Below are positions 2,428-9,475 of a stretch of 20,488 bases of DNA, piece by piece (position 1 is the stretch's first letter; the number at the start of each line of letters is the position of its first letter). Source of the DNA: a virus; IMG/VR virus record IMGVR_UViG_3300045051_000111, positions 1-20,488 of that record. One strand, 5' to 3'. Under the pieces are notes generated by a model. The model was not told the origin of the DNA. It saw only the letters and a program-made list of their open reading frames with translations, and did no database searches. The position numbers were made by a program, and so were the translations under genes.

Positions 2428-3477
2428 TTACCAAGATGAAGCCCGCTTAACCGCCTGGCGCATAATCCTTTGCTGTTGCAGAATCCCCCCCGCCGCAGCC
2501 GTGTAATAAACCGTTGCCCTTGCATAGTCCATCACAATAGTATTTGCGGATTGATTACCAGCCCACCCAATACCCAGGTCATTGTTGATTTCGTTTACGG
2601 TCCACGTAGTATCAAACAAGTCATCGGGGCCACCATATCCGAGATAGGAAAATGTGGTAGACCATTCCTGTCCAGCTACCCGATCACTACCAACCGGCGT
2701 TCCAGCCTTATACACCACGGCACTCACATCCTGTGTCAGGGCCGCGCCCTTGTTGTGCACCCAAAAGTTGTTGGCAATGAAGGTATTTGGCGCATCGACC
2801 GTGATGTCGTAAACAGTCACGAACTCCTGAACAATAAAGATGCTGGTGATGATCTCAAGCCCATACTGCTGGAAAACCGATGAGTCACTTTTGTAGTCCG
2901 CCCGAGTGTACGAAGTATAGAGCCTGTCACCGACAACCAAGTCTCGTGCCGGTACAAACTTCATAGCATCTGTAAAGAACGGATGTGTTCCAGTGGCCCT
3001 GATGGTTTGCCTATCAACAAACTTGCTCTCATCCCTGTGCAACCCATACAGATCAGGCATTCGCTTAGTAGTCGTGATGATGTAGTACTCCTTGGCCGGT
3101 ATCTTTGAGATAGTCAGAACCTTAACTGGCACCGTAGTCAGGTCATCCTTAAACCCAATCAATTCATCACCAACCTCGAGCTTCTCGATAGAAGCATCAT
3201 GCCCATCACTGAGGCGCACCAACGTTCCCTCCACCAAACACGAATCCTTAACCCTGAACTCGCTAAAGATACCATTGATAGTGGAACCAACAGGTATAGT
3301 AAACCCATGGAACCCCGCCAACGTCTGTATGCGATGCGAAGTGCCGGAACTTGCCGTTGAGAGCGTTAAACCACCCTCACCCGACAGTGCACCATTTGGG
3401 TTGATCCAGCTCACGGAACCAACCGAGGTGTCCTCCTGCCAGTTATCGGCACACCCGAATGGACCCTGTGAAGCCAT
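2428..3477 (-). CDS. Virion beta-sandwich protein interrupted by an intein-like Hint domain
   Basis: This 349-residue ORF has three parts. Residues 1-79 and 243-349 look like two halves of one phage beta-sandwich domain: the first ends with a strand containing IPVGSTINGIFSEFRV, and the second resumes with VSAVVYKAGTPVGSD, a GGPDDLFDTTW segment and a closing VTVYYT-like strand (ATVYYTAA). That order is familiar in single uninterrupted phage proteins. Between them, residues 80-242 form a Hint domain (Cys80, T162-G-T-H165, His241-Asn242) with Lys243 at +1. Joining 79 to 243 would restore the domain. The C-terminus ends with a Gln/Arg-rich tail. The ATG at 3477 lacks a strong ribosome binding site. 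It sits 12 bases from the upstream gene and 2 bases from the repeat-protein start. Whether it splices or only cleaves is unknown. Confidence 0.85.
   Translation of the reverse strand: MASQGPFGCADNWQEDTSVGSVSWINPNGALSGEGGLTLSTASSGTSHRIQTLAGFHGFTIPVGSTINGIFSEFRVKDSCLVEGTLVRLSDGHDASIEKLEVGDELIGFKDDLTTVPVKVLTISKIPAKEYYIITTTKRMPDLYGLHRDESKFVDRQTIRATGTHPFFTDAMKFVPARDLVVGDRLYTSYTRADYKSDSSVFQQYGLEIITSIFIVQEFVTVYDITVDAPNTFIANNFWVHNKGAALTQDVSAVVYKAGTPVGSDRVAGQEWSTTFSYLGYGGPDDLFDTTWTVNEINNDLGIGWAGNQSANTIVMDYARATVYYTAAAGGILQQQRIMRQAVKRASSW
2752..3240 (-). other. Intein-like Hint/BIL domain (163 codons)
   Basis: The domain starts at Cys80 of the host protein with CLVEGTLVRLSDG (block A), has TGTH (TxxH, block B), and ends VYDITVDAPNTFIANNFWVHN (blocks F and G). 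There is no room for, and no motif of, a homing endonuclease. The residue after the terminal Asn is Lys, not Cys/Ser/Thr. Absence of a +1 nucleophile is the hallmark of A-type bacterial intein-like (BIL) domains, which are known to cleave and, in some cases, splice. The DNA frame is continuous with both flanks. Exact boundaries were checked at the Cys codon (3238-3240) and the Asn codon (2752-2754). Confidence 0.88.
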
Positions 3478-7085: not shown

Positions 7086-9410
7086 TTACTTAACAATCGG
7101 CACCACTGTGCACCGGCAATTCGGATGCAAGGGCGGAAAGTCTACTGATTCGTAGTTAAGGTTTAGTGTGCCACCGTCGAGGCCCCGAAAGGTGTCACCC
7201 TTGTCGAAAAAGCTCCCTCCGAGTGACACCTCTCTGCCATCCATGGGCTCACACCACTGGCAGGTATGCTCATCCTCAGTCGTCAACCACTGCAACTTAT
7301 CGACCACGCCAGACTGGTCGTAAGCCTCCGTAGCAGCGAAGTTAGACGCCCGCACAACCTCGGACCGCGCAATACGCTCAGCCCGATACTTCTCAAAGTT
7401 ATCAAACAAACCCCGTACACGCTTGGTAAGGTCAGGAATACCCTCGCCCGCAGCCACGCCCTCCTTGAGCGTGTCCTTGAGCAAGCGGTTCGTTTCCTCG
7501 GTAACCTCAAAGCTGAACTTGAACGTGCGGTCACCCAGGTAGTCCTGCACCGTCTTGGTAGCCAAACTGAACCTGTGACCAGCACCAATAAGCTGCGAAG
7601 CGCGATGCCCCTGATCGTCAATGATTTTGTGCAACTGTGGCTGGTAGGCCTGCACCATAACGCGCGTCTCATCCTCCTCGTCAAGCTGGTACTCGTTGAT
7701 GTCGATGATGGCCTTCATGGGAAACTTGCGAACAATCTTTTCCATTTGGTTCTGAAACATAGTGCGTGTAGTAACCAACATCACCTTCTCGTGCTCATCC
7801 ATCGCCCGCACGAATAGCTTGCCAAACTGCTGGTGAACGGCCCGCGAGGTAGCCTCGGCCTGCTTTGACTTCTGCCTGCGAGCGGTAACTATGCTGCGCA
7901 CCATGTTGGCAGCCACTTGATCAATCTTGCCCTCAATGTGCTTGATGTCCTTCTCAACCGTAGCCTGCGCCGCAGCCCGGGCCTTCTGCGCCTCGACACG
8001 CTGCTTCGCCCGCGCGTAGCCCCCGCCTGAGCGAGCCATAATGCCACGGCGCTCAGTGAGTGTCCTAGATCCCGACCGGCGCACCTTAAACGATCCAATC
8101 CCTTTGGTTGGGTAACCGTTTGCAGGTGCGGCCGGTTGAGAGCCAAGCATATCAAGCGGCACCAAAACATTCGGCAGATAGATAACATCGCCCTGCTCGC
8201 CGATGTCCTCGAGGTTCTGTGCCGCGCGAACCTCGTTGATAGTCATCCAGCCCTTGCCCAACGCCGAGTCGTACCGCTTAACCTCAGCATCCACATCCTG
8301 CGGTACAGGATCCTCGTAAGCCAAAAACATGCGCTCCGTACCCTTAAACATGGGCAGGTAGAACTCATTAAGCTGCGCCACAATCCGGTCCAGCTTCGGG
8401 CGCACGGTGTACTTAGAAAACACATACTCGCCAATCTTAGCGTTCGCCAGGTTCACATCCTCAGCCATACCGAGCACCGCCTTAGGCACGCGGAATATGG
8501 CCATGATTTTCTTGGCGTCGTACTCCTGCTGTTGCAAAAAGTCCATGTCCTTCTGCGAGAGGGTCATGGGTGCGAACTTCAAACCTGATTCAAGTACCAA
8601 AGTCTTGTGAGCCTTATCAACGCCCTGGTATAACTTCTTAACCGAAGCCGATAGCGTAGCCTTCTGCGCTGCCGATAGTTTCTGATCGCTGGACAGCACC
8701 GTATCGGGCCGCGCCGAATTAAAGAAAAACCGCTTGTTGAACTCCTCGGAGTACTCGTCGATATCAACCGTGCGAGCGGCCGCCTGCAGCGTACCCTTGC
8801 CCCTGAACGCATTGACCGGGTCGGGATACTTCAGGAATACAAGCTCAGACGGCTTGATATCCATGTCAGTGCCAAGATCCATTTTGTACACGTACTTCTC
8901 AATGGGTGTAGGTGAACTCTTGTCCTTGGATTGCACGATAGCCAGCGCATCGGGCCTGAGCAACAGAATGCTCTTAGGCTCACCCTCGCCTGACTCGCCG
9001 CGATCAATGAACCACGGCGCCTCACCGGTAAGGTCAAGGTACTGCTGCGTCAACCACGTGTGATCGTAGCGAGTAGTAAACGCATTAACACGATCGAGCA
9101 GTTCAGTAGCAGCATGGTTCTCAACCTCTGTAATGTTGCCTTGCTTGTCGATCTCATACAGCCCGATATCCACCTTAGCCACGCTGTCAGCAATAGCCGA
9201 TACGCAGGCGTACACCCACCCGATAGCGGCCTTAAGCTGGTCGGCCGCCCCGCGCTTCGGGGGTATGTCGCCAAAAAAAACGCCATCAGTTCTGAATCCC
9301 TGAGGCTCATCCATCTCAATGCTCGAGCCGGTAAGCCCGCGCTCGATTGAACTTCGCAGGTTGCCAAGGTTGGCCTCCTGCCCCTTCACGATCTCGGCGA
9401 TGATATCCAT
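7086..9410 (-). CDS. Portal protein fused to a MuF-like head morphogenesis domain
   Basis: Using the ATG at 9410 this is a 774-residue protein. The N-terminal half is a phage portal: AAIGWVYACVSAIADSVAKV, WLTQQYLDLTGEAPW, then GLKFAPMTLSQKDMDFLQQQEYDAKKI and FRVPKAVLGMAEDVNLANA. A basic Ala/Arg linker follows. The C-terminal part is MuF-like (SPP1 gp7 / Mu F): ERIARSEVVRASNFAATEAYDQSG, then Cys717 and Cys720 in CQWC, and HPNCRC near the end (Cys765, Cys767). Portal forms the DNA channel; MuF-type proteins act in head assembly or ejection. The same frame opens 21 codons earlier at 9473, but that stretch encodes an intrinsic terminator and hairpin, so the 9410 start is preferred although its ribosome binding site is weak. 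A natural fusion rather than two genes; no internal stop was seen. Confidence 0.92.
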   Translation of the reverse strand: MDIIAEIVKGQEANLGNLRSSIERGLTGSSIEMDEPQGFRTDGVFFGDIPPKRGAADQLKAAIGWVYACVSAIADSVAKVDIGLYEIDKQGNITEVENHAATELLDRVNAFTTRYDHTWLTQQYLDLTGEAPWFIDRGESGEGEPKSILLLRPDALAIVQSKDKSSPTPIEKYVYKMDLGTDMDIKPSELVFLKYPDPVNAFRGKGTLQAAARTVDIDEYSEEFNKRFFFNSARPDTVLSSDQKLSAAQKATLSASVKKLYQGVDKAHKTLVLESGLKFAPMTLSQKDMDFLQQQEYDAKKIMAIFRVPKAVLGMAEDVNLANAKIGEYVFSKYTVRPKLDRIVAQLNEFYLPMFKGTERMFLAYEDPVPQDVDAEVKRYDSALGKGWMTINEVRAAQNLEDIGEQGDVIYLPNVLVPLDMLGSQPAAPANGYPTKGIGSFKVRRSGSRTLTERRGIMARSGGGYARAKQRVEAQKARAAAQATVEKDIKHIEGKIDQVAANMVRSIVTARRQKSKQAEATSRAVHQQFGKLFVRAMDEHEKVMLVTTRTMFQNQMEKIVRKFPMKAIIDINEYQLDEEDETRVMVQAYQPQLHKIIDDQGHRASQLIGAGHRFSLATKTVQDYLGDRTFKFSFEVTEETNRLLKDTLKEGVAAGEGIPDLTKRVRGLFDNFEKYRAERIARSEVVRASNFAATEAYDQSGVVDKLQWLTTEDEHTCQWCEPMDGREVSLGGSFFDKGDTFRGLDGGTLNLNYESVDFPPLHPNCRCTVVPIVK

Positions 9411-9424
9411 GAGCGTGTTGTGGT

Positions 9425-9459
9425 AAAAAAAGAGCCCCCCACCGAAAGGTAGGCGGCTC
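9425..9459 (-). terminator. Intrinsic terminator before the portal gene
   Basis: On the minus strand a hairpin of 11 base pairs with one G-G mismatch (outer stem GAGCC/GGCTC, inner stem closed by a TTTC loop) is followed at once by seven T residues (9431-9425). This is a textbook Rho-independent terminator oriented to stop the operon between the zinc-ribbon gene and the portal gene. No promoter fits in the 14 bases before the portal ATG, so head genes must depend on read-through, antitermination or transcript processing. Confidence 0.85.
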
Positions 9460-9475
9460 ACGTAGTCCCCCATGC

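Follow-up and report, generated by a model that had tools for sequence, protein, structure and literature searches.

Described relatives of the Hint domain

BIL domains are said to occupy variable regions or the stretches between domains, and to undergo cleavage more than splicing. In the route proposed for those of type A, a thioester forms at the N-terminus, the C-terminal Asn cyclises and the amine set free attacks the thioester; cleaved products predominate (PMC4031507). Mostly cleaved products were described for BILs without a nucleophile at position +1 (PMC7664689; PMC4031507), and one BIL spliced only once its +1 residue had been mutated to Cys (PMC4031507). In Tetrahymena BUBL1, BIL2 (6y75, 6tmm) stands between two separate, independently folded ubiquitin-like domains and does not disrupt one protein (PMC9200820). 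For this BIL2, splicing with a Lys epsilon isopeptide was reported by the structure providers (PMC8616854).

The Hint domain of this study splits a single fold, and is encoded in a virus record of 20,488 bases (the window, meaning this whole stretch of DNA). The window Hint shares with the type A BILs (e.g. C. thermocellum CthBIL4, 2lwy) the Hint fold, the N-terminal Cys, the TxxH motif, the C-terminal His-Asn and the lack of Cys, Ser or Thr (C/S/T) at +1. It also shares the insertion in a variable region, in this case a hairpin turn with 15-31 residues between anchors across the host family. The known type A BILs, however, have been described from bacterial proteins that are not conserved, in the variable parts of these, whereas the window Hint interrupts one folded, probable virion domain in the fashion of an intein, and carries Lys at +1. 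In the Foldseek search with the model of the window Hint, BUBL1 BIL2 came first, but the window Hint lies within one domain and its reaction is putative. It resembles the class 1 mini-inteins (e.g. Ssp DnaB) in the fold, in Cys1, TxxH and His-Asn, and in being inserted in frame so that the host domain is restored on removal. Unlike these, it lacks C/S/T at +1, occupies a variable turn instead of a conserved site, and is hosted by a structural domain, whereas the mini-intein hosts are replication or packaging enzymes. By the +1 test (Lys243), the window Hint is not a class 1 intein, and by its testable features it probably belongs near the type A BILs, in a subgroup with the ending HN/KG (the slash marks the downstream junction). 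The window Hint also scored above the Pfam cut-off of the pre-toxin family PT-HINT (PF07591), but no toxin follows it; the C-flank is half of a beta-sandwich, and a pre-toxin reading was rejected.

The Hint domain and its motifs

The Hint region matched PF07591 above the Pfam cut-off (1.2e-6; 29.3 bits, cut-off 27.7) and PF14890 Intein_splicing below it (8.9e-7; 29.3 bits, cut-off 35.8). On the window protein, TIGR01443 (NCBIfam, intein C-terminal splicing region) scored 20.5 bits (cut-off 15.6), and the PF14623 profile gave no match in the window record. In the 163-aa window Hint, neither a LAGLIDADG-like or other homing endonuclease motif nor any other domain match was found; the endonuclease domain by which homing inteins are recognised is thus absent. 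The preliminary description, made from the sequence alone, had taken Cys80, TGTH and a terminal His-Asn as the marks of a 163-residue Hint without homing endonuclease. This was borne out by the profile HMMs, with PT-HINT and TIGR01443 above their cut-offs, and by the intact motifs; the window Hint keeps all catalytic residues (Cys, TxxH and HN), with the conservation given in Table 1.

Table 1. Positions in the window of the Hint-bearing gene and its parts
Feature	Position	Strand	Remarks
Whole gene	2428..3477	-	Single intact ORF, 349 aa; Hint nested in a probable virion beta-sandwich domain
N-flank, residues 1-79	3241..3477	-	First half of the beta-sandwich, end ...GIFSEFRVKDS; 34.5 bits alone with the HMM of 60 uninterrupted copies (columns 6-82)
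Hint domain, residues 80-242, 163 aa	2752..3240	-	PF07591, PF14890, TIGR01443; model pLDDT 86.8; Foldseek matches to BIL2, mini-inteins and CthBIL4
Cys80, expected thioester nucleophile	3238..3240	-	No variation across the 46 aligned Hints
T162-G-T-H165, block B TxxH motif	2983..2994	-	T and H each kept in 90% or more of the 46 Hints
His241-Asn242, C-terminal Asn for predicted cyclisation	2752..2757	-	Invariant in the 46 Hints
Lys243, +1 residue instead of Cys/Ser/Thr; Gly244 next	2749..2751	-	HN/KG recurrent elsewhere
C-flank, residues 243-349	2431..2751	-	Second half of the beta-sandwich plus a tail of about 20 residues; 57.0 bits alone with the same HMM (columns 89-171)

The Hint and the beta-sandwich domain were modelled separately. 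The best Foldseek match of the Hint model was Tetrahymena BIL2 (6y75; E 1.7e-10), and the other best PDB matches were the Ssp DnaB mini-intein and CthBIL4 (2lwy), so that BILs and mini-inteins were mixed. When the Hint-group profile was compared with solved structures, 2lwy was first (92 bits) and BIL2 second, both above every solved intein. A search of the same structures with the window Hint as a single sequence placed an intein (6rpq) first and did not discriminate between BILs and inteins.

The interrupted beta-sandwich domain

The host family was found by a degenerate DNA search of viral contigs with the motif D-L-W-G-[STAP]-T-W-T. This gave 71 loci, about 60 of which encode a domain of about 165 aa without interruption. 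The joined flanks aligned contiguously, at 99.9 bits, with an HMM built from 60 of the uninterrupted viral copies, compared with the lower scores of either flank alone (Table 1) and -1.7 bits for the Hint. BLASTP alignments of the joined flanks with single family members also crossed the junction (e.g. 34% over 158 residues, 2e-20). Counted between fixed anchors, the hairpin of the joined flanks is 25 residues long, and the family mode is 24-25. Among 625 boundary-shifted deletions, the exact removal of residues 80-242 had the top score, tied with one neighbouring variant; as boundary shifts of 1-2 residues cost less than 1 bit, the score places the site to within a few residues and not to one. 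It is almost certain that the Hint lies inside one beta-sandwich domain. The two flanks had been described beforehand as consecutive strands of one known-looking phage domain that would be rebuilt by removal of the insert. The rebuilding is upheld by the joined alignment, the normal hairpin length and the rank of the exact deletion, and uninterrupted homologues aligned straight across the junction. The domain being a known one holds only in part: about 60 viral copies exist, but the joined flanks had no match in Pfam or NCBIfam and no convincing PHROG family, even though the domain is widespread.

The model of one homologue (L059; pLDDT 96) is a beta-sandwich, in which the aligned junction is the turn between strands 73-82 and 88-97. 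Structurally it was closest to viral proteins, either of the tail or unnamed (TM up to 0.88), and its matches to carbohydrate-binding modules were weak (TM about 0.4). The insertion site is thus, as predicted from the alignments and the model, a variable beta-hairpin turn. One family protein (L038) runs on into a PHROG virion structural protein, and the host is for this reason likely to be a virion protein.

Searches of viral contigs, phages and plasmids with the whole protein or the joined flanks returned no direct relatives and only weak matches to ordinary inteins. A close relative with the Hint in the same host protein was not found; no other of the 328 loci had both domains in one reading frame, and the beta-sandwich profile search revealed no second split copy. 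The nearest phages by capsid relatedness (L001-L011) have no beta-sandwich gene, and hence no uninterrupted orthologue is present there. The Hint might in principle be a stable, unprocessed surface insert that has lost its function or taken another role such as binding. The lack of a +1 nucleophile would agree with this, no relative is there to reveal selection, and an exposed turn could accommodate an insert. The catalytic residues and the reading frame are intact, however, and a dead phage Hint would be expected to decay, which makes such an insert highly improbable.

Residue +1 and the HN/KG ending

Viral contigs were scanned for Hint C-termini with the +1 residue left free (pattern FIA[ND]G..VHN), and at least 126 matches were listed. 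Among these 126, the +1 residue was Cys in 48, Ser in 38, Ala in 14, Thr in 11, Lys in 10 and Gly in 4, with one match lying at an end; Lys is slightly inflated by a few Hints taken from an earlier scan that selected for HN/KG. Summed over the matches listed, C/S/T was found in 97 versus 28 with Ala, Lys or Gly, and with few exceptions the hosts of the latter were tail adhesins or J proteins of the tail tip. Thinning of the matches listed at 85% identity over the last 60 residues left 108 (Cys 42, Ser 37, Thr 10, Lys 8, Ala 6, Gly 4). The hosts with C/S/T at +1 were apparent terminases, portals, helicases and other enzymes, as judged by reading of the sequences and not by individual searches. 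Of the matches listed, six with Lys, nearly all with Ala and every one of the four with Gly were located at the N-terminus of J proteins of the tail tip, flanked by Gly-rich stretches. PHROG confirmed three of these as J proteins, and Pfam agreed for two of the three. Two cases with Lys at +1 were in Gp38-like tail adhesins, one of which (L095) was confirmed.

The N-terminal Hints of J proteins with Lys, Ala or Gly at +1 were at L085, L087, L089, L091, L092, L097, L098, L102, L117, L121, L130, L142, L144, L155, L161, L166, L175 and other loci. In the adhesins L094:2527-3798 (-) and L095:2648-3946 (+), a Hint ending in HN/KGGGK is within the Gly-rich part of the protein. L088:97-1443 (-) has a Hint-like N-terminus with HN/KGGG, in which position 1 is Gly and not Cys.

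With a pattern that required HN/KG, the viral contigs yielded 11 genuine Hints, and a collection of 84,980 genomes of bacteria and archaea about two dozen genuine Hint proteins. Many of these bacterial and archaeal proteins carry two to three tandem Hints linked by KG or KGGG, and a Tim44-like domain was present in both tandem-Hint proteins tested (L224, L245). As the pattern itself selects Lys, the Hints outside it were counted in the tandem-Hint proteins, and all 22 of 22 also had HN/KG. Lys at +1 is not a one-off, and HN/KG is, at the level of sequence, a recurring signature. Among L219-L247 (e.g. L221, L227, L236, L243, L245), some proteins continue after the tandem Hints with a likely membrane segment and the Tim44-like domain. 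No description of such HN/KG Hints in phage structural or bacterial membrane proteins was found in the open-licence papers searched. The recurrence of HN/KG makes the Hint a repeated feature of phage structural proteins and no curiosity. Found in tail adhesins, J proteins of the tail tip and membrane proteins with tandem Hints, the ending offers a sequence signature by which joining in the absence of a thiol or hydroxyl at +1 can be tested. An amine-using joining reaction becomes testable because the His-Asn/Lys-Gly ending recurs in both phage tail and bacterial membrane proteins. The preliminary description had likened the +1 Lys to type A BILs; Lys243 is present, but a non-nucleophilic +1 residue is not unusual in Hints of virion proteins such as the J proteins and adhesins.

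None of ten beta-sandwich proteins with equal hairpin length had Lys at the junction position, which fits, but does not prove, the arrival of the Hint with its own KG. In the tree, the window Hint was placed among the Hints with Lys at +1, and a placement with the C/S/T inteins was not rejected (p-AU 0.25). The window Hint scored 89.7 bits with an HMM of bacterial Hints with Lys at +1 and 57.9 bits with one of C/S/T Hints, a difference that is only indicative with 33 versus 10 training sequences. The tree result, and the first rank of 6rpq in the single-sequence search, would be compatible with an ordinary class 1 intein that has drifted at +1 and now splices poorly. The HMM difference points the other way, to the limited extent just given, as does the KG at +1/+2, which fits the recurring signature, and a drifted intein is considered very unlikely.

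The Lys residue might also take part through its side chain. The N-flank would then be taken from the Cys80 thioester by an epsilon-amine, either that of Lys243 or that of a different lysine, possibly on another virion protein, resulting in a side-chain join or in conjugation elsewhere. This would parallel the isopeptide reported for BIL2, the best structural match, and both the constancy of Lys in the tandem bacterial Hints outside the search pattern and its absence from the ten family members speak for it. Main-chain joining is, however, geometrically simpler, and related J proteins also have Ala or Gly at +1, so the Lys side chain is not needed throughout. Isopeptide formation is on balance improbable.

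Proposed reaction

We infer the following chemical steps for a small, probable virion protein formed by one beta-sandwich, with a type-A-BIL-like HN/KG Hint in a beta-hairpin turn. After folding, a thioester between Cys80 and Ser79 would form by an N-S acyl shift, assisted by TxxH. Cyclisation of Asn242 would free Lys243, the amine of which would attack the Ser79 thioester; the halves would be rejoined in a protein of 186 residues and the Hint released. With both halves in one fold, the thioester and the amine would be held close, and joining would be favoured over hydrolysis. As the Hint interrupts one fold that would hold both ends together, splicing by aminolysis is the favoured reading, and splicing of the type A BIL kind is given a probability of about 0.5 as the main outcome. 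Since a single folded domain is split, joining can be scored by whether the known fold is rebuilt.

The BIL that required a mutation of +1 to Cys counts against splicing in the window protein, as does the variable turn, where a nick or even the whole insert might be tolerated by the domain. The same holds for the lack of an uninterrupted orthologue in L001-L011 and of a close relative with the Hint, and for the tree test, in which a place with the C/S/T inteins was not rejected. One alternative to splicing is cleavage without joining. Asn242 would cyclise and the thioester would be hydrolysed, or only the C-terminal cleavage would take place; the Hint would leave and the halves would stay together as a nicked domain. 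The predominance of cleavage in BILs lacking a +1 nucleophile, cited above, agrees with this, and the break would fall in a variable surface turn. Excision nevertheless restores a normal domain length, as expected if joining matters, and domains that only cleave would be expected between domains and not within one. Cleavage alone is unlikely, but it deserves serious consideration beside splicing.

It is also conceivable, and rather doubtful, that the HN/KG Hints form a splicing class of their own, with the amine of the +1 Lys (as side-chain isopeptide or freed main-chain amine) taking the N-flank from the thioester. Phages would use this class in virion and tail proteins, in the window like an intein inside one fold. 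As for the diversification or cross-linking of a virion protein that had been suggested earlier, nothing was found that favours either over plain excision.

Genomic setting

The Hint gene is in a structural block, with an HK97-type capsid, an S78 protease, a portal with a Mu F domain and a terminase upstream in the direction of transcription; these neighbours agree with the placement among likely head and tail genes in the preliminary description. Two of the capsid-related phages (L005:352-3840 (+) and L010:1118-4414 (+)) have intein-like insertions of greater length, with additional sequence resembling an endonuclease, close to the HPN-C end of a portal-fused Mu F domain; the portal of the window (7086-9473) is without an insert. 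The Hint gene is adjoined by a gene (677-2434, -) for a 585-aa protein of degenerate short repeats (ADTVTLADxxxxTxGK...), the sole match of which was an unnamed PHROG (12240). A block of sugar genes is also present on this phage contig (13340-20472, -), including a nucleotide-sugar epimerase, glycosyltransferases and a UDP-glucose dehydrogenase-like gene.
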